From a marine bacterium B5-7 (GTDB lineage: Bacteria > Pseudomonadota > Gammaproteobacteria > Arenicellales > CAJQKF01): DNA of 64,000 nt. How positions within the stretch are numbered: position 1 is the stretch's first letter; the number at the start of each line of letters is the position of its first letter. Shown here piece after piece: positions 45,888 through 62,002 of the stretch. The DNA is taken from the NCBI GenBank assembly GCA_021604525.1, contig BQJD01000020.1:1-64000 (forward strand), given 5' to 3'. Under the pieces are notes generated by a model, which was not told the DNA's origin, did not search any database, and was given only the letters and a program-made list of their open reading frames with translations. A program made the translations under genes and the position numbers.

Positions 45888-46250
45888 TTATCCCGATGCG
45901 GGATTGGCGAAAAATATATAAGACGTAGAGTAGTCACTGAACTCAAAGTAGACTTTTTTCTCGCCTGGATCGCTGCGATTATTGAGATTCACATCAAGCA
46001 CGCCATAACCGAAACGGTATGGTCGCGACTCACCGGTACCGGTACCACCGGCAGTACTGAGTTTGTCTATCTCAAGGAATCGACGCACCAGCTTATCACC
46101 GGCGTAGATCTCAAGAATCCCGTCGGTCCCGGTCCAGTTTTGTACGGCACGACCGAACTTGTTCTGTACCTCCTGGGTACAACCACTGACCGCAAGCACA
46201 CATGCCGTCACAAGGACGGGAAAAAACCTAGCTATCGTGCTCTTCGACAT
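45888..46250 (-). CDS. small conserved lipoprotein, function unknown
   Basis: I do not recognise the family. Starting at the ATG at 46248-46250 it has 120 residues with a lipoprotein signal peptide ending in LAVSGC (Cys24). A compact, aromatic-rich domain follows, with conserved-looking NWTGTDGILEIY and RPYRFGYGVLDVN segments. It overlaps the end of the upstream membrane-protein gene by 23 bases, so the two are coupled and may act together at the envelope. Alternative ATGs at 46253 and 46259 are in frame. Confidence 0.7.
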   Translation of the reverse strand: MSKSTIARFFPVLVTACVLAVSGCTQEVQNKFGRAVQNWTGTDGILEIYAGDKLVRRFLEIDKLSTAGGTGTGESRPYRFGYGVLDVNLNNRSDPGEKKVYFEFSDYSTSYIFFANPASG

Positions 46251-46677
46251 CATCAACATCGAGCTGGCCACTAAGACGCCGCCTGATGTGCGACCACGAC
46301 ATACCAAGCGCCATGATGCCGGCAATCGCTATCAACACCAACCAGGTAATAACGTCGGGGTTATCGAGGGACAACCAGCCGCGATCGAAAAACAACCAGA
46401 ACAGCAGCACAAAGAATGCCGTTGCCAGGGCCAGGCCAAATGCGCCTAGAGAACGTTGCGTGGAGCGAATGAATATGGTCCAGCCAACAATGAGGATCAA
46501 CCCGACAAGCGCCTTGAACACGTCAAACGATGCACCATCGGCCCCTCCGAACAAGGGTGCCAGTGCCCAGTGATAATAAGACAGTAAGCCAAGCGGATTG
46601 TAGGTGGCAAACACCAACACCAACGCGAGGCCGAATCGGATCAGGAAATGCTGTGTTTTAAATCGTGTAACTGCCAT
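46228..46677 (-). CDS. small four-helix membrane protein, DUF6524-like
   Basis: Integral membrane protein of 149 residues with four hydrophobic helices (about 10-30, 53-70, 76-97 and 107-126) and an acidic C-terminal tail. It resembles proteins annotated as DUF6524; no function is known. It is the first gene of a coupled pair with the lipoprotein downstream. Confidence 0.75.
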   Translation of the reverse strand: MAVTRFKTQHFLIRFGLALVLVFATYNPLGLLSYYHWALAPLFGGADGASFDVFKALVGLILIVGWTIFIRSTQRSLGAFGLALATAFFVLLFWLFFDRGWLSLDNPDVITWLVLIAIAGIMALGMSWSHIRRRLSGQLDVDDVEEHDS

Positions 46678-52704: not shown

Positions 52705-55347
52705 CTAGCCTGATTGGGGCAATAATTGCTTCATCCAATCAGTCTCCCTGACCTCATCGAAGGCACCATGACCTACGATGGCTCCACCATGCATGACCAG
52801 TGTTTGATCGAACAACACGGATAACTCGGGCCGCTCCAATACCCAAATCAGTCCGCGTTCGCCCTGGTACTTTAGAACATTCTTGACAAGACGTTCCTGG
52901 GCATTGGGATCGATGGACGTCATTGCCTCATTAACAATCAGGACATCGGGTTGTTTCATCAGGCAACGAGCAAGCGCCAGCTTTTGCTTCTGCACCAGGC
53001 TAAGTCGTGCACCGGAACTGCCCACATGATAGTTGAGTCCAATTTTGAGAATGTCCTCGTCAAGTCCCGCCTGCGCTATGACATTACGAAGGACGACAGC
53101 AATTTTGTCTTTGGCATTCGCCTGTCCGTAGACAATCGTCCCGAAAAGCACATTTTCCTGGAGGGTGATTGCCGGATTGACAGCATTCTCATCCAGAAAG
53201 CGGATGGAATCATTTTCTTCGCCAAGACGTTCATGAAGTTGACGACGAACAGTGACAATGCGCTCCTGCATGTCTTCGTCCAGCAATCCCAGACGATGTC
53301 GCGCCAACACCAGTTTAAACGGCAGATCGAGAAATTTTCGTCGATCCTCCGAACGCCATTGCATGGGATCCGGATCTGTTGCACGACCGGTGAGCGTTTT
53401 GTATTCGGCAAGCGCTTCGGAGCTTAAAAAACTGAACTGCTCAAATAACGGATCACCCGGTGGGGCATCGGCAAACAGTTCGAGCATGATGTTGGCAGCT
53501 TTTTTACCTATCAAACAGAATTGCCCGTATAAGTCGTTCTCCTTGAGCAACTCAACAATCAATGGATTATCGGCCAGATTATCGGCTTCAAATTCGACGT
53601 TCAAGGGTGCACCGAACAGGAAATTCTCAGCCACAGACATGCTGCGATTGAATGCCGACGAATCGAAACTTTCCACCAGTTCAGACTGACCGCTTTCTGC
53701 AAGCGTGGCTTTCAATTGCTCGCGAGCCTTGAGTACATGCTCGAACAGATGATCCTGGGAATTTACATCGAGTTTTGAACTCAGGCCAAATTGATAAACA
53801 TCCCGTTCAAGATCGGTCACCTCAAGCACATCGACAACCCGCCTGAACAATTCATCCTGATCTTTGGCATTGGCAGATTCGTAATCGATCCAGTCTGCGT
53901 CGTGATTATCAAGACTGTTGGCGGTCAGCCGGGCTATTTCACGACGCTTCGCATGCTCGTCATGGTTACGCGCCTCCTCTTGTTCGGGTATCGCAGTCGG
54001 CACGTGCATCAGGCCATACAAAAGATTGCCGCGAATGGTCCCGGTGAAGATATGCGCGCCGGACCCCACATAGGCCTGGCGGCGACCAAGAACGCCTTCC
54101 GGCATGGAAGCCAGATCAATTCCATCGACAGTGACACGACCACTGGTGGGCATCACCAGTCGAGCGATCAACTTGGACAACTCGTCCTTGCCGCTACCGG
54201 TTGCACCCACAGTACTCACGCTCTGATTGATGCCTATAGAGAAATTGGCGCCATCGACCGGCTTGATCGCACCATCTTCACTGTAAACGAGGTTACTCGC
54301 CATTAACTCGCCTTTAAGAGGTTCCACAGTCTCAGGTGGCTCCTGCAGTTCTTGCGGAAACATGTTCTCAGGATCGAATTGTTCAATGATTTGTTCATAC
54401 TTGACGCGAATGTCTTCCTTGGTCTGGTAGTACTTGAGCAATTCCTTCCAGGGTGGCGAGATATCCTTGTAGGCGGCGAGTACCGCGACCATGGCACCCA
54501 ACGACAATTCCCCTTTTATAACGAAATAACCACCGATGGAATAAAAGAAAAACGGTGTTAACTGGGCAAGAAAGTTGTTTAAGAACTTTATGAAGAACTT
54601 GCGTTTGAACAGATCGATGCGGATGATATAGATCGACCCAAGCCGATAGGATATCTCCGACTTTTCCATCCGTGATGTGTCGTGGGCGTGAATTTCATTG
54701 ATACCGGAGATCGACTCACCCACGCGATCAGCCAGTCCGCGCACTTCCTTGACACGACGCTTGGCAAGCGCATTGACCTTGCGTTGCAAACGCGGAATCA
54801 ACCAGAGTTGCGGTGGATACAGTGCGATCGCCGCGAGCCCGAGAAAGAAGTCCTGCTGGAATATGAAAAACAGGTACGTCACCAATAAGCCGCCCTGGAA
54901 GGCGGGCAAGGTGAAAGCTTCGCCAATGAACCCACCAAGCGGTTCGGTTTCGGCGGTCACCATGGGGATGATCTCACCTTGAGATGTCCGCTTGAAATGC
55001 GGCAACGGAAACCTCAGGATTCTCTCGTAAAGCGAATATCGAAAGCGCATCAGCATGCGCTCGCCGATAGTACCGCTGTAGACGCTGATGGAATACTTGA
55101 TACCACCATTGATGGCGATAACGCCCAGGAAAGCGAAGCACAGGGCCAGTAAATAACCGACCTGACCCATGGGAACACCGAACAGTTCGTATGGCGCGGC
55201 CTGACCACCAATCGCGCCATTGATGATGATCTTGGGTATTTCAAGCGAAATATAGATGAACGGAAGATTGACCAGAGTCATAACCAACAGGTATATCTGG
55301 TCTTTCGTCGTATACTTCAGTACGAATTTATATATCGATTTTTCCAT
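52705..55347 (-). CDS. atypical ABC exporter-like protein with degenerate, interrupted ATPase domain
   Basis: Protein of 880 residues. Residues about 15-300 form an ABC-exporter membrane domain with about six helices. The ATPase domain begins near 345. Walker A reads GATGSGKD (381-388), with Asp where Ser/Thr is required. The Q loop follows at Q424. A region of about 275 residues (about 450-725), rich in charged helices, interrupts the domain. The signature is degraded (SGARLSLVQ, 778-786), Walker B has Asn806 for Asp (LIVNEA, Glu807 kept), and the H-loop histidine is replaced (VLERPE). Either it works without normal hydrolysis or it uses a modified site. It is upstream of, and divergent from, two glycosyltransferases. 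Confidence 0.88.
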   Translation of the reverse strand: MEKSIYKFVLKYTTKDQIYLLVMTLVNLPFIYISLEIPKIIINGAIGGQAAPYELFGVPMGQVGYLLALCFAFLGVIAINGGIKYSISVYSGTIGERMLMRFRYSLYERILRFPLPHFKRTSQGEIIPMVTAETEPLGGFIGEAFTLPAFQGGLLVTYLFFIFQQDFFLGLAAIALYPPQLWLIPRLQRKVNALAKRRVKEVRGLADRVGESISGINEIHAHDTSRMEKSEISYRLGSIYIIRIDLFKRKFFIKFLNNFLAQLTPFFFYSIGGYFVIKGELSLGAMVAVLAAYKDISPPWKELLKYYQTKEDIRVKYEQIIEQFDPENMFPQELQEPPETVEPLKGELMASNLVYSEDGAIKPVDGANFSIGINQSVSTVGATGSGKDELSKLIARLVMPTSGRVTVDGIDLASMPEGVLGRRQAYVGSGAHIFTGTIRGNLLYGLMHVPTAIPEQEEARNHDEHAKRREIARLTANSLDNHDADWIDYESANAKDQDELFRRVVDVLEVTDLERDVYQFGLSSKLDVNSQDHLFEHVLKAREQLKATLAESGQSELVESFDSSAFNRSMSVAENFLFGAPLNVEFEADNLADNPLIVELLKENDLYGQFCLIGKKAANIMLELFADAPPGDPLFEQFSFLSSEALAEYKTLTGRATDPDPMQWRSEDRRKFLDLPFKLVLARHRLGLLDEDMQERIVTVRRQLHERLGEENDSIRFLDENAVNPAITLQENVLFGTIVYGQANAKDKIAVVLRNVIAQAGLDEDILKIGLNYHVGSSGARLSLVQKQKLALARCLMKQPDVLIVNEAMTSIDPNAQERLVKNVLKYQGERGLIWVLERPELSVLFDQTLVMHGGAIVGHGAFDEVRETDWMKQLLPQSG

Positions 55348-55401: not shown

Positions 55402-56688
55402 ATGAATGTGTCAACCGCGCCTGGCGCCCAATCCGCACTCGAACCGGGCGGCAATAGTTATGTCGCGGTCATTCTGAAAGGATATCCACGCCTGTCTGAA
55501 ACATTTATAGCCCAGGAAATCAAAGCCCTGGAAGACCTCGGCCTTGAACTGAAACTGTTTTCACTAAGACAACCCACCGATCACACTATACACCCGATCC
55601 ACAGCGAAATTCACGCTCCGGTAAGCTATCTCCCCGAGTACGTTTATCGTCAGATTCCCCGTGTGCTACGGGGATTATGGCACAGCATAAGGTACTGTAG
55701 TTTCAGTAAGGCAGTCCGCGCGTTTCTTACCGACGTGCGGCGTGACCCGACACCCAATCGTATTCGCCGGTTCGCTCAGGCATGTGTACTGGCGAGGGAA
55801 CTGCCGCCGGGTTGCCTCGGACTGTATGCCCATTTCATGCACACACCGGGTTCCGTGGCGCGCTATGCAGCGATGTTGGTCAATGTGCCCTTTGCATTGT
55901 CTGCACATGCCAAGGACATCTGGACGATACCCGAGTGGGAAAAACGCGAAAAACTCGACGGATGTACCTTTACCGTCACCTGTACAGCAGTCAACCACGC
56001 ACATCTCGAATTATTGGCGCGTGACCCAGGCAAAGTCCACCGGCTCTATCACGGCCTTGATCTCGCGAGATTTCCGGATCCGAAAATTGCAACAAACATC
56101 ACTTATAAAAGCAGACACAATGGGAGTGACGGACAACCGGTATCACTGCTTTCAGTGGGACGCGCTGTGCCAAAAAAAGGCTACGATATGCTGCTGGATG
56201 CCCTGGCGCGATTGCCAAAAGGCCTGAAGTGGCGCTTTCGACATATCGGCCAGGGGCCGGCGCTGGAATCTCTTCGCCATCAGGCTGTAAAACTCGGCAT
56301 CGATGACAGTATTGAATGGCTCGGACCACTACCCCAGCAGGAAGTGCTCGAGGCCTACCGGGCCGCCGACTTATTTGTACTTGCTTCAACCGTGGCGGAA
56401 GACGGTGACCGTGATGGCCTGCCCAATGTGTTGATGGAGGCACAAAGCCAGAGACTGTGCTGCATCGCAACGCGTGTTTCAGGGATTCCTGAAATCATCA
56501 TCGATGAGAAAACCGGCTTTCTCGTCGACGATGGCGATGATCACGCCATGGCACTTGCCATTGAGCGACTCGCCCGCAATCCGATACTGCGACATATCAC
56601 GGCCGATACGGCTCTGCATCGACTTGAAGATAAGTTTTCGATGGACAGGCAAATCCGCACACTTCGGGATTTACTGGTACGCCTTTGA
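55402..56688 (+). CDS. glycosyltransferase, GT4-type
   Basis: Retaining GT-B glycosyltransferase of 428 residues. The N domain includes LKGYPRLSETFI; the C domain has LSVGRAVPKKGYD, the donor-site motif around EAQSQRLCCIATRVSG and GIPEIIID. The N terminus resembles polysaccharide-assembly enzymes such as the WcaL/colanic acid group. Donor and acceptor are unknown. It overlaps the second glycosyltransferase by four bases. Confidence 0.88.
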   Translation: MNVSTAPGAQSALEPGGNSYVAVILKGYPRLSETFIAQEIKALEDLGLELKLFSLRQPTDHTIHPIHSEIHAPVSYLPEYVYRQIPRVLRGLWHSIRYCSFSKAVRAFLTDVRRDPTPNRIRRFAQACVLARELPPGCLGLYAHFMHTPGSVARYAAMLVNVPFALSAHAKDIWTIPEWEKREKLDGCTFTVTCTAVNHAHLELLARDPGKVHRLYHGLDLARFPDPKIATNITYKSRHNGSDGQPVSLLSVGRAVPKKGYDMLLDALARLPKGLKWRFRHIGQGPALESLRHQAVKLGIDDSIEWLGPLPQQEVLEAYRAADLFVLASTVAEDGDRDGLPNVLMEAQSQRLCCIATRVSGIPEIIIDEKTGFLVDDGDDHAMALAIERLARNPILRHITADTALHRLEDKFSMDRQIRTLRDLLVRL

Positions 56689-57803
56689 ATATCGCCTTCT
56701 ACGCGCCCCTGAAGTCCCCCGGTCATCCTCACCCGTCCGGTGATCGATTACTCGCGAGAGCGTTGATCAGGGCCCTTGAGACCGGTGGTCACCAGGTCGG
56801 CATTGCCAGTGAATTACGGTCGTTCGAAGGTCACGGCAACACGGATGCGCAACAAAGCATTCGCCGTGCAGCCGATGGCGAGATTGAACGATTATTAAAA
56901 CAGTATCGCACCACAACGCCACCGGATGCCTGGTTCAGTTATCACATCTATCACAAGGCGCCGGACTGGGTGGGCCCGACAATCTGCGAACTCCTGAGCG
57001 TTCCCTATATTGTTGCCGAAGCATCCGTTTCACCCAAACAACAAAACGGTCCATGGCGAGACGGTCACCGCCAGGCGATTCACTGCATCAACAAGGCCGA
57101 TGCCATGATCGCGCTCAACAAACGCGACATGCAATGCGCCCTGCCCCATTTGTCGGCCACTGCACGGCACCTTCGACTCAAGCCGTTTATCGAAGTCGAC
57201 AAGCACCATATAAAGGGAGATAACCAGAAGAATCCTGAAAATCCGGACAGGAAGATCCAGCTTGTGAGCGTCGCCATGATGCGTCGGGGCGATAAAATGC
57301 GCTCCTTCGAACAACTTGCCGAGTGGCTTGGTCGATTGCCAAATGAAAATTGGTACATCGACGTGGTAGGCGACGGAGTAATGCGCGCCGAGGTGGAACG
57401 ACTGATTTCCGATGTTGCCGGGACCAAGGCCACCTTCCATGGTCAACTCGAAGGCGACCCGCTGCACGCGCTACTCGATCAATCCGACATCCTCGTCTGG
57501 CCTGCCATCAATGAAGCATTCGGCATGGTGTTTCTGGAAGCGAGTACACATCATCTGGCGGTTGCCGCCGGTCGTAACGGCGGCGTTACCGAGGTCGTTT
57601 ATAATGGCCTCACGGGAATGCTGCTGGATGCAGTAGATACAGACAGCGCCGCGCGTGGTTTGAACTACCTTATCGAACGGCCTGATGTCATCGCACGCAT
57701 GGGCAACGAAGGCTATAAACAAGTCACTCAACGCCACGATATCAACACAGCCGCCATTCGGCTTACTCAACTACTGGAATATCTATGCGGGAAGTCGTAC
57801 TGA
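56685..57803 (+). CDS. second glycosyltransferase, GT4-type
   Basis: GT-B glycosyltransferase of 372 residues, starting at TTG (56685) that overlaps the previous stop (TTGA). It has the N-terminal APLKSPGHPHPSGDR, a VSVAMMRRGDK segment beginning the C domain, and the donor-site motif AFGMVFLEASTHH with NGGVTEVV. The N-terminal motif PSGDR is characteristic of a bacterial GT4 subgroup. The third gene, a phosphatase, overlaps its end by 19 bases. Confidence 0.87.
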   Translation: MNIAFYAPLKSPGHPHPSGDRLLARALIRALETGGHQVGIASELRSFEGHGNTDAQQSIRRAADGEIERLLKQYRTTTPPDAWFSYHIYHKAPDWVGPTICELLSVPYIVAEASVSPKQQNGPWRDGHRQAIHCINKADAMIALNKRDMQCALPHLSATARHLRLKPFIEVDKHHIKGDNQKNPENPDRKIQLVSVAMMRRGDKMRSFEQLAEWLGRLPNENWYIDVVGDGVMRAEVERLISDVAGTKATFHGQLEGDPLHALLDQSDILVWPAINEAFGMVFLEASTHHLAVAAGRNGGVTEVVYNGLTGMLLDAVDTDSAARGLNYLIERPDVIARMGNEGYKQVTQRHDINTAAIRLTQLLEYLCGKSY

Positions 57804-58366
57804 TCAGACATGGGCTCACGCAATGGAATATCGATCGCCGCATTCAGGGGCAAACCGATATTCCGCTGTGCGAACAAGGCATTGAACAAGTTCTCTCATG
57901 GCGTTTCCAATCACACTACCTCAACTATCAGTGGTACTCCAGTCCGCTGATACGAACCTGCGAAACCGCTCGATTAATGGGTATCGATGCACCTACCAAA
58001 GCGGATGACCTGATTGAGATGGATTGGGGCGAGTGGACCGGCCGGCATTTGAAAAGCCTGCGCAATGAATTGGGTCAGGCGATGGAAGAAAATGAAAATC
58101 GCGGACTGGATTTCCAACCGCCGGGAGGCGAATCGCCGCGACAGGTTCGAGAGCGTTTGGCTGCCTGGCTGAAATCCCTGCCCCACAGCGACAAACCCGT
58201 TTTCATAGTGACCCATAAAGGCGTCATCCGATCCGCCATCAGTCTCGCCACAGGCTGGGATCTGAAATGCGAATTCGGTGAAAAACTCGAACGCGATGCA
58301 TTGCATCGCTTTTATTTAAACGACTCCACTTTCTCACTCGATGGCCTGAATTTCCCGCTTTTGTAA
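57785..58366 (+). CDS. histidine phosphatase-family protein
   Basis: Phosphoglycerate-mutase-like phosphatase of 193 residues. The RHG motif R8-H9-G10 (LIRHGLTQWN) and the second histidine in VTHKGVIR are intact, with EMDWGEWTG for the acidic residue. Substrates range from sugar phosphates to cobalamin intermediates. Linked by overlaps to two glycosyltransferases, a sugar-phosphate role is a reasonable inference. Confidence 0.88.
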   Translation: MREVVLIRHGLTQWNIDRRIQGQTDIPLCEQGIEQVLSWRFQSHYLNYQWYSSPLIRTCETARLMGIDAPTKADDLIEMDWGEWTGRHLKSLRNELGQAMEENENRGLDFQPPGGESPRQVRERLAAWLKSLPHSDKPVFIVTHKGVIRSAISLATGWDLKCEFGEKLERDALHRFYLNDSTFSLDGLNFPLL

Positions 58367-58778: not shown

Positions 58779-59624
58779 ATGATTTCAAGCAATCCCTTCT
58801 CCGAGATTTCGGCAACCATCCCCGCCATCGTGATGCAGGGATATGTGGTCGTGATGTTCCTGATGGTGATAGGTGGCACCATTGTCGACATGATTCATAA
58901 GGGAAGTGCGCGGTACTTCTTTGAAAATTCCAAAAAGGCCAAGGCACAGGCAGTCCGCCCGGTCGGTGCAGGCACTAAGGCATCGCTTGCGTTGCAAACC
59001 GTTGCCAAAGAGGTTCTGACATCCGGTGAATTCTCGAATCAGAAACGTCGATTGTCACACTTGCTTACGATGTATGGATTCATCATCTTTGTTGTAACTA
59101 CGGCAATCATGATTTTCTCCTATCCCACACCTGAAGTACCCACGCCTTCCTACCTGCCCATGTTGTGGCATCTCGGTGCGCTGATGATTTGTATCGGCGG
59201 CTATTGGTTCTGGTTCTCCATCCGGGTCGATGTGTCGTCAGAAGGAAATCCATGGTATCGCCTGGTGCGTGCTGATTTGTTCATTGTCTCCCTGTTGCTG
59301 ACCGCAACCTTTGCGCTGATCTGGTCAGTGTTTCAGGCGGGTGATATTGCCGGCTGGGAAACATTGTTTTTTGTCTTGTTTATTGCTTCAAGCACAACAT
59401 TGTTCAGCACCGTATTGTGGTCGAAGTTCGCACATATGTTCTTTAAGCCAGCCGCCGCGTATCAGAAACGCATAACAAAGGCGGATGGATCCAGAGAGAA
59501 TCTTCCTGAGCTGGCGGATAGAAACAACCCTGCCGACAGGGATCGTCATTCAATGGAATTGCTGAAAGACGCGCCAATGGATATGGGTCTCGGCATCGCT
59601 CGCGAAGCGCCCCGCCATTACTAA
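58779..59624 (+). CDS. aprM: adenylylsulfate reductase membrane anchor AprM
   Basis: Integral membrane protein of 281 residues with about five helices, thought to anchor the AprBA complex and pass electrons between it and the quinone pool. It resembles the NarI/HdrE-like cytochrome b fold. First gene of aprMBA. AprM is typical of gammaproteobacterial sulfur oxidizers, whereas sulfate reducers use QmoABC instead, so its presence indicates oxidation of sulfite to sulfate via APS. Confidence 0.88.
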   Translation: MISSNPFSEISATIPAIVMQGYVVVMFLMVIGGTIVDMIHKGSARYFFENSKKAKAQAVRPVGAGTKASLALQTVAKEVLTSGEFSNQKRRLSHLLTMYGFIIFVVTTAIMIFSYPTPEVPTPSYLPMLWHLGALMICIGGYWFWFSIRVDVSSEGNPWYRLVRADLFIVSLLLTATFALIWSVFQAGDIAGWETLFFVLFIASSTTLFSTVLWSKFAHMFFKPAAAYQKRITKADGSRENLPELADRNNPADRDRHSMELLKDAPMDMGLGIAREAPRHY

Positions 59625-59678
59625 GCCAGAACTAACAAAATCACTGAATTTAATATCACTGAATTTTAGAGGAATACA

Positions 59679-60158
59679 ATGCCAACTTTTGTATATATGA
59701 CACGTTGTGATGGTTGCGGCATGTGTGTCGATATCTGTCCTTCCGATATCATGCATATCGATAAAACCACTCGTCGTGCCTATAACATCGAACCCAATAT
59801 GTGCTGGGAATGCTATTCCTGCGTAAAGGCCTGCCCACATCAGGCGATAGACGTGCGTGGCTATGCCGATTTCGCCCCGTTAGGTCATAGCGTGCGGGTA
59901 ATTCGTGAAGAGGAAAAAGGTACGATTGCCTGGCGAATCAAGTTCAGGAACGGCACCGAAAAGAATTTCCTGTCACCCATTACCACGAAGCCATGGGGAC
60001 GGGATATACCGAAGCTTGCGGACGAGCCGGAGCCATCTCAGGAAATGCGTGACAGTCAGTTGTTATTTAACGAGCCCAAATACATTCGAATGGATGATGG
60101 GGATTTGCACACACTTGAGTCAAATGGCCTGAAGATGAAAGAAGGGGTGTATTACTAA
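59679..60158 (+). CDS. aprB: adenylylsulfate reductase beta subunit
   Basis: Ferredoxin-like electron-transfer subunit of 159 residues with two [4Fe-4S] clusters: C10, C13, C16, C20 and C42, C45, C48, C52. A C-terminal tail wraps around AprA. AGAGGA lies six bases before the ATG. A 12-bp direct duplication lies in the leader (59640-59651, 59655-59666). It overlaps aprA by one base (TAATG). Confidence 0.96.
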   Translation: MPTFVYMTRCDGCGMCVDICPSDIMHIDKTTRRAYNIEPNMCWECYSCVKACPHQAIDVRGYADFAPLGHSVRVIREEEKGTIAWRIKFRNGTEKNFLSPITTKPWGRDIPKLADEPEPSQEMRDSQLLFNEPKYIRMDDGDLHTLESNGLKMKEGVYY

Positions 60159-62002
60159 TGGCATACAAGACTGTCGTTGAAGACAACATCGATGTGCTGG
60201 TGGTCGGTGCAGGCCTTGGTGGAACCGGCGCCGCATTCGAAGCCAGATACTGGGGCAAGGACAAGAAGATTATAATCGCAGAGAAAGCGAACATTGATCG
60301 TTCCGGTGCGGTTGCACAAGGCTTGTACGCTATCAACTGTTACATGGGTACCCGCTTCGGTGAGAATAATCCTGAAGATCACGTGCGCTATGCGCGGAAC
60401 GATCTGATGGGGATGGTTCGCGAAGATTTGCTGTTTGACATGGCTCGTCACGTTGACTCAACGGTGCATCAGTTTGAAGAGTGGGGCCTGCCGTTGATGA
60501 AGGATCCGGAAACCGGTGCCTACTTGCGGGAAGGAAAATGGCAGATCATGATACACGGCGAGTCGTACAAGCCGATCGTGGCGGAAGCCGCTAAAAAGTC
60601 AGCGGACAAGGTTTATAACCGCGTATGTGTCACCCATTTATTGCTCGATGAATCCAGGGAAAACCGAATCGCCGGCGCAGTAGGATTTAATGTGCGCACG
60701 GGTGACTACCACGTATTCAAATCCAAAACCGTTATTGTTGGTGCCGGCGGTGCGTCCAATATATTCAAGCCCCGCTCAGTGGGTGAAGGTGCGGGGCGTG
60801 TGTGGTACGCCCCCTGGTCTTCCGGTTCCGCGTATGCATTGCTGATTAATGCCGGCGCAAAAATGACGCAGATGGAAAACCGCATCGTACTGGCAAGATT
60901 CAAGGATGGATACGGTCCCGTTGGCGCCTACTTTCTGCATCTTAAAACCTATACCCAAAATGGTGAGGGTGAAGAATACGAGTCCAAATGGTACGACCAC
61001 ACCAAGGCAATCGTCGGCGAGTATATCGACCATCATCCAACGCCAACCTGCTTGCGTAATCATGCGTTCATCCACGAGGTTAATGCAGGTCGCGGCCCAA
61101 TCCACATGGTCACCATGGAAGCCTTCCAGGATCCGCACCTCGAAGAAGTTGGCTGGGAGAATTTCCTGGGCATGACAGTCGGTCAGGCGGTATTGTGGGC
61201 GGCGACAGATGTCGATCCCAAATACGAGAATCCTGAACTGACCACATCCGAGCCATATGTCATGGGCTCCCATGCAACTGGTTGTGGCGCATGGTGCTCC
61301 GGTCCGGAGGATATTTCACCACCGGAGTATTTCTGGGGTTACAACCGCATGATGACCATTGATGGTCTGTTCGGTGCGGGGGATGCCGTTGGCGGAACAC
61401 CGCACGCGTTCTCATCCGGGTCATTTACCGAAGGCCGTCTGTCTGCGAAAGCCGCTTGTAAATATATAGACGATGGCAAGGGCGAAGGTATTGTTATATC
61501 TGAGAAACAGATAAACACCTTAAGGGAAGTCGTCTATAAACCGATGGAGCATTACAAGACTTTTCGTAATGAAATAACTGCCGGTTCCGTTAACCCGAAC
61601 TACATCAATCCCCGTCAGGGTCTGGATCGTTTGCAGAAATTAATGGATGAATACGGCGGCGGTGTAACAGTCAGTTATATGACTAACGAAAATCTTCTGA
61701 ACATCGGTCTGAAGAAACTAAAGATCATGGAAGAGGATCTGGAAAAGGTTGCGGCTGAGGACCTTCATGAATTGATGCGCGCATGGGAGCTTAAGCATCG
61801 TCATCGTACTTCCGAGTGTGTGTTACAGCACACCCTGTTTCGCAAGGAAACCCGCTGGCCTGGATATTATTACCGTGGCGACGCAATGAAACTGGACGAT
61901 GAGAACTGGCACGTATTGACAGTATCCCGTCGTGATCCCAAGACCGGTGAATACACGTTGGAAAAGGCACCGTGTTATCACCTGGTTTCAGAAAACGAAT
62001 AA
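60158..62002 (+). CDS. aprA: adenylylsulfate reductase alpha subunit
   Basis: FAD catalytic subunit of 614 residues. In sulfur oxidizers it joins sulfite and AMP to make APS. The FAD-binding motif VVGAGLGGTGAAFEA is at about residues 15-29, and the active-site region contains SHATGCGAWCSGPEDI (about 371-386) and GAGDAVGGTPHAFSSG. The length matches the family. The strong terminator at 62030-62055 ends the aprMBA transcript. Confidence 0.97.
   Translation: MAYKTVVEDNIDVLVVGAGLGGTGAAFEARYWGKDKKIIIAEKANIDRSGAVAQGLYAINCYMGTRFGENNPEDHVRYARNDLMGMVREDLLFDMARHVDSTVHQFEEWGLPLMKDPETGAYLREGKWQIMIHGESYKPIVAEAAKKSADKVYNRVCVTHLLLDESRENRIAGAVGFNVRTGDYHVFKSKTVIVGAGGASNIFKPRSVGEGAGRVWYAPWSSGSAYALLINAGAKMTQMENRIVLARFKDGYGPVGAYFLHLKTYTQNGEGEEYESKWYDHTKAIVGEYIDHHPTPTCLRNHAFIHEVNAGRGPIHMVTMEAFQDPHLEEVGWENFLGMTVGQAVLWAATDVDPKYENPELTTSEPYVMGSHATGCGAWCSGPEDISPPEYFWGYNRMMTIDGLFGAGDAVGGTPHAFSSGSFTEGRLSAKAACKYIDDGKGEGIVISEKQINTLREVVYKPMEHYKTFRNEITAGSVNPNYINPRQGLDRLQKLMDEYGGGVTVSYMTNENLLNIGLKKLKIMEEDLEKVAAEDLHELMRAWELKHRHRTSECVLQHTLFRKETRWPGYYYRGDAMKLDDENWHVLTVSRRDPKTGEYTLEKAPCYHLVSENE

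Follow-up and report, generated by a model that had tools for sequence, protein, structure and literature searches.

Among the type IV ABC exporters of Proteobacteria is a branch, apparently undescribed so far, whose catalytic motifs are altered or lost across its whole breadth under purifying selection and whose nucleotide-binding domain (NBD) carries the helical subdomain in three tandem copies. The member examined here lies in the window, the 64,000-nucleotide stretch of DNA that was analysed, where the gene at 52705..55347 on the minus strand encodes an ABC-exporter-like protein of 880 residues, recognised from its open reading frame, Pfam matches, homologues and a structural model, with the same start methionine as its homologues. 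An earlier note on this DNA had described degenerate ATPase motifs and an insertion in this one protein; the family-wide state and the conserved partners are what it missed.

The overall architecture is that of an exporter. Residues 1-325 (54373..55347, minus strand) make up the transmembrane domain (TMD; PF00664, ABC_membrane, 2.1e-18) and a split ABC_tran match (PF00005) covers the NBD, both over cut-off. The whole chain was modelled by AlphaFold2 (pLDDT 85.6), and because the NBD of the model superposes on that of ComA over 238 of 239 residues (rmsd 1.7 Å, Z 31), the canonical NBD fold appears to be intact around the insertion. The best whole-chain structural matches were TM287/288, MsbA and Sav1866 (Z ~29-31 for Sav1866, MsbA and TM287), together with MsRv1273c/72c. 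A six-helix exporter TMD joined to an NBD of canonical fold places the protein, as modelled, among the type IV ABC exporters. Its best NCBIfam match is TIGR02203 (MsbA) at 162.3 bits, below the curated cut-off of 602 bits. Database records name members of the family simply as ABC transporter proteins, so the motif defect has gone unnoticed in annotation.

The catalytic motifs were compared in 124 homologues, namely 104 aligned members and 20 more distant ones. Canonical Walker A (GxxGxGK[ST]) and Walker B (hhhhDE) are absent from this protein, which reads GKD and VNEA instead, and the same holds family-wide. Walker A is the degenerate GATGSGKD at residues 381-388 (54184..54207, minus strand), where position 388 is Asp or Glu in 76 of the 104 aligned members and Ser or Thr in 14. 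Walker B is the degenerate DVLIVNEA at residues 801-808 (52924..52947, minus strand), in which N806 replaces the usual Asp and the catalytic E807 is kept; position 806 is Asn in 75, Ser in 12 and Asp in 10 of the 104. At the H-loop position Glu838 (52834..52836, minus strand) replaces His, a residue found in 30 of the 104 aligned members and 30 of the 124 homologues. These readings of GKD, Asn for Asp and the missing His agree with the earlier note, which had also called the LSGGQ signature unrecognisable; on this point we differ. Residues 782-786 (52990..53004, minus strand), within GARLSLVQKQKLALAR, read LSLVQ, and in the sequence and the family alignment this remnant retains L, S and Q with both glycines gone, so the signature can still be recognised. 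LSxxQ is the family form, and Gly-Gly occurs in 2 of the 124 homologues. The full set of six hallmark features was found in none of the 124, the best member having four of six, so the canonical homologues that the earlier note named as a possible refutation do not occur among those carrying the insertion. Among the distant members 20 of 41 have no hallmark feature at all, and some divergent members lack Walker A without trace. The degeneracy of the NBD is thus a family-wide trait, not the decay of a single gene.

Some catalytic residues persist. E807, D813 and K387 are mostly retained across the 104 members (E807 in 60 and K387 in 65), and since this member keeps both K387 and E807, weak ATPase activity is possible. 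One alternative we considered takes this further and proposes that the ATPase still works through a swapped metal site, with Asp or Glu at 388 replacing the missing Walker B Asp and an altered hydrolysis continuing. The conservation check proposed in the earlier note for D388 and N806 speaks to it: an acid at 388 without an acid at 806 occurs in 71 of 104 members, and Ser or Thr at 388 goes with Asp806 above expectation (5/14 vs 5/90, Fisher 0.004, tree ignored). However, when the charge swap was tested on the tree the independent changes were too few and the support was lost; the signature Gly-Gly is also missing in nearly all members, and K387 or E807 in many. We regard a swapped metal site as unlikely.

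The family is widespread. Of 60 genomes from the order, about half encode a homologue with the insertion (31 with E < 1e-60), the family is present in 26 of 299 genomes sampled from the phylum, and it was found at more than 580 places in a species-level genome set, mainly in Alpha- and Gammaproteobacteria, as well as on 262 plasmid records, mostly of Rhizobium and Sinorhizobium. Every occurrence of the insertion in the phylum sample lay within a long frame of the exporter-like family. Over 13 pairs, dN/dS was 0.02-0.16 for the TMD, 0.03-0.22 for the NBD core and 0.03-0.42 for the insertion, and the TMD, with many invariant residues, is the best conserved and most constrained region. In distant members the NBD hallmarks are gone and the TMD and the repeat motifs are retained.

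These data also bear on whether the gene is a decaying pseudogene or an assembly artefact. One homologue (L114) does contain two in-frame stops and the homologue of S. meliloti 1021 has a homopolymer frameshift, but about half of the 60 relatives from the order encode a full-length orthologue, Rhizobium and Sinorhizobium plasmids carry such orthologues too, and dN/dS lies far below 1 in every region. On dN/dS gene decay was rejected, and decay or artefact together are left with a vanishingly small probability; the frame, open over 880 codons, the family-wide state and values below 0.45 in TMD, NBD core and insertion alike uphold the earlier view that this is not simple decay. The individual cases deserve mention in their own right. 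The copy at L114:4181-6757, the same gene as in L040, is apparently decayed. In S. meliloti 1021 the pSymB homologue (L165:14001-16713) differs from L162:9001-11712 by one base in a C run, the frameshift beginning after about residue 134, and several other S. meliloti records also differ in total length; phase variation or sequencing error are both possible explanations. A second subgroup in the same order (L021, L022, L023 and L024) has proteins of ~840 residues with Walker A wholly lost and a shorter first helical unit, and a conserved divergent neighbour of ~217 residues stands in place of glycosyltransferases.

The second defining feature is the insertion at residues 447-726 (53170..54009, minus strand), about 280 residues delimited by canonical chains that align on both sides and by the model. 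The Q-loop position at 429 and the signature at 782 lie ~353 residues apart, a distance that is 57 in the canonical exporter L166, so that the ~275 residues previously estimated for this distance fall short. The helical subdomain, running from the Q-loop exit to the signature helix, is present here in three tandem copies. Unit A (residues 424-557; 53677..54078, minus strand; assigned by profile comparison and model) begins with the Q-loop strand and TIRGNLLYG at 437-445. Unit B (558-714; 53206..53676, minus strand; assigned by profile and structure) bears SVAENFLFG at 571-579, with N575 in 124/124, and unit C (715-797; 52957..53205, minus strand) bears TLQENVLFG at 728-736, with N732 in 124/124, and contains the signature remnant. 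Units A and B account for the insertion, and unit C is the one whose whole length matches canonical exporters.

Evidence for this triplication comes from profile matches, PDB comparison, a common unit layout and a near-invariant Asn. Profiles built from the family gave E values of 1.3e-11 for B-C, 1.8e-6 for A-B and 4.3e-6 for A-C, with column-shuffled controls reaching a probability of 12 at most. Against a profile of 19 canonical exporters, unit A scored 5.8e-10 (start only), unit C 1.6e-19 and unit B 3.1e-4; control segments gave no match to that profile. The insertion profile also matched the third copy in separate proteins (E ~1e-8). The earlier suggestion that the later segments echo TIRGNLLYG therefore stands at profile level, where all three are related, and not in the single sequence: there, in 18-residue windows, SVAENFLFG vs TLQENVLFG scored above all 300 shuffles, and neither pairing with TIRGNLLYG did. 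The internal duplication of NBD pieces that the note had suspected is borne out as three tandem units. Each unit has a short strand, the motif [ST]-hydrophobic-x-x-N-hydrophobic-hydrophobic-[FY]-G at its start and a helix at its end, and the motif Asn is found in 124/124 for units B and C and in 120/124 for unit A.

Modelled alone by AlphaFold2, residues 447-728 are mostly helical (pLDDT 92), and when the insertion alone was compared with PDB chains, residues 561-707 aligned at the top of the list with the helical subdomain of ABC NBDs, those of MsmX, IrtA, MalK, LolD, MacB and MJ0796 (Z 2.8-4.5). Since unit B bears only a weak resemblance to canonical helical subdomains (E 3e-4; Z 4.5 over 69 residues, below the safe level of the tool), its identity rests mainly on its likeness to unit C. 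A second NBD, which the earlier note had named as a possible refutation, was looked for in residues 447-726, where there is no Pfam ABC match and no P-loop motif in the sequence; extra helical-subdomain units occupy the place instead. Searches of the insertion turned up no foreign domain, giving only DUF6809 at 0.27 in Pfam, no match among PDB sequences and a best Foldseek PDB E of 0.34.

Sugar-building enzymes recur in the genomic neighbourhood. A divergent GT4-type glycosyltransferase (55402..56688, plus strand; Glycos_transf_1 3e-34), a second glycosyltransferase (56685..57803, plus strand; 1.2e-21) and a histidine phosphatase (57785..58366, plus strand; His_Phos_1 2e-39), the last conserved in 45 loci, are conserved neighbours of the exporter gene. 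A cluster of GT4-type glycosyltransferase genes lies upstream of the exporter gene in 81 of 94 loci, mostly on the opposite strand and rarely downstream, with such genes at position -1 in 62 and at -2 in 58 of the 94; an oligopeptide-type importer and a methyltransferase also recur nearby. The linkage to glycosyltransferases is lost in most divergent family members. Elsewhere in the window, the DUF6524 membrane protein encoded at 46228-46677 lies close to purL and purC, and homologues of it occur at three more loci in near relatives. Frames at 58779-62002 resemble, by reading of the sequence, a QmoC-like membrane protein and the adenylylsulfate reductase subunits AprB and AprA, which suggests a sulfur-oxidising host.

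The same neighbourhoods weigh on the idea that the protein is the degenerate half of a heterodimer, more extreme than those of TM287/288, TmrAB and TAP, whose canonical partner exporter is encoded elsewhere. The rank of TM287/288 and MsRv1273c/72c among the best whole-chain matches agrees with such a pairing, as does the presence of five other PF00664 proteins (exporters) in the source genome, with which pairing in trans would be a candidate only. Yet no linked canonical partner exporter was found in the neighbourhood within the window or in the conserved neighbourhoods of the family. With the Walker side and the signature side altered together, a dimer would moreover have no canonical composite site, and in distant members Walker A is missing. 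A heterodimer seems to us unlikely.

A second conserved partner is a 160-residue protein whose sole domain is cNMP_binding (hereafter the cNMP protein). Its gene lies directly downstream of the exporter in 20 loci, and in 14 proteins it is fused to the exporter C-terminus, with L142, L148 and L039 providing homologues that bear such a fusion; in the source genome it is encoded in trans (G000:C29:28390-28836). Across the 60 order genomes, both proteins occur in 29, one only in 2 and 2, and neither in 27 (Fisher 3e-12, shared ancestry ignored). In the phylum sample the cNMP protein was found in 20 of 26 family genomes and in 0 of 273 others (Fisher tests ignore shared ancestry), and every strong match (E < 1e-20) was in a family-bearing genome. 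Its phosphate-binding cassette, GEIAIL..PRTAT, is intact, so the protein may bind a cyclic nucleotide.

Taken together, the protein may export a glycan or glycolipid as a pseudo-ATPase or altered ATPase under the control of a cyclic-nucleotide sensor, a reading to which we assign an even chance; its substrate, its energetics and the cNMP control are what we infer. Two exporter copies would pair as a homodimer and transport the glycan or glycolipid that the neighbouring glycosyltransferases make. Normal hydrolysis of ATP would be absent or very slow, nucleotide binding may persist in members that keep the P-loop Lys, this protein included, and at the metal Asp388 perhaps stands in for the Walker B Asp that was lost. 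In normal NBDs the helical subdomain holds the TMD coupling helices; the extra helical subdomains might form a docking surface for partners, and the cNMP sensor would set the state of the transporter. A bolder form, an ABC exporter scaffold without ATP-hydrolysis drive that is opened and closed by a dedicated cNMP sensor, with the tripled subdomain docking and gating, is in our judgement a long shot. It is similarly improbable that a former transporter now serves as a scaffold or receptor in the membrane, keeping glycosyltransferases and cNMP sensor in place there. The stable partner set and the distant members described above, which have TMD and repeat motifs without NBD hallmarks, are consistent with such a role, but the constraint on the whole six-helix TMD, with its invariant residues, exceeds what anchoring would need.

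ABC transporters are ATP-driven motors. Here is a widespread branch, at hundreds of loci, in which the TMD is strongly selected, the motor residues have been discarded, the coupling subdomain has been tripled and a cNMP sensor has been acquired, and it would allow a test of whether transport or gating by an ABC fold can do without hydrolysis. Its linkage to sugar-building enzymes and to a cNMP sensor suggests that the family exports sugar and differs from ordinary ABC pumps in how it works or is switched. The scaffold is already known; the new part is that a pseudo-ATPase NBD, a tripled helical subdomain and a cNMP partner occur together. For this combination no match was found among the curated family models searched, and searches of open-access papers gave no description of the family.

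Several known systems invite comparison. The S. meliloti MsbA2 (SMb21191), a proposed exporter of a polysaccharide of unknown function (PMC3687685, PMC12239276), adjoins two glycosyltransferases as here, an analogy of setting only. A suspected identity of MsbA2 with the S. meliloti homologue of this family was rejected, the two being at different pSymB loci (~938 kb vs 842 kb). For the Rhizobium gene pRL110056 (PMC11103875) no mapping to the exporter cluster was obtained, and a PADLOC match to mad3 (1.3e-6) was taken as a generic ABC ATPase match. MsbA and other type IV homodimeric exporters (TIGR02203) are alike in TMD and NBD fold; here, in contrast, the motifs are degenerate, the helical subdomain is tripled, the partners are others and the score of 162 bits falls below the 602-bit cut-off. 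TM287/288, MsRv1273c/72c, TmrAB and TAP share the overall fold and have the catalytic residues of one NBD altered, and such heterodimeric exporters with a degenerate subunit generally have one composite site impaired and one canonical (e.g. PMC12038006), whereas the present family has both its Walker and its signature side altered and shows no linked partner gene. The insertion, finally, finds a parallel in layout outside the exporters. SMC and Rad50 heads and ABC-F proteins with their arm also carry a large insert that parts the Q-loop half of the NBD from its signature half; theirs is a coiled coil or an arm, whereas here it consists of copies of the helical subdomain itself.
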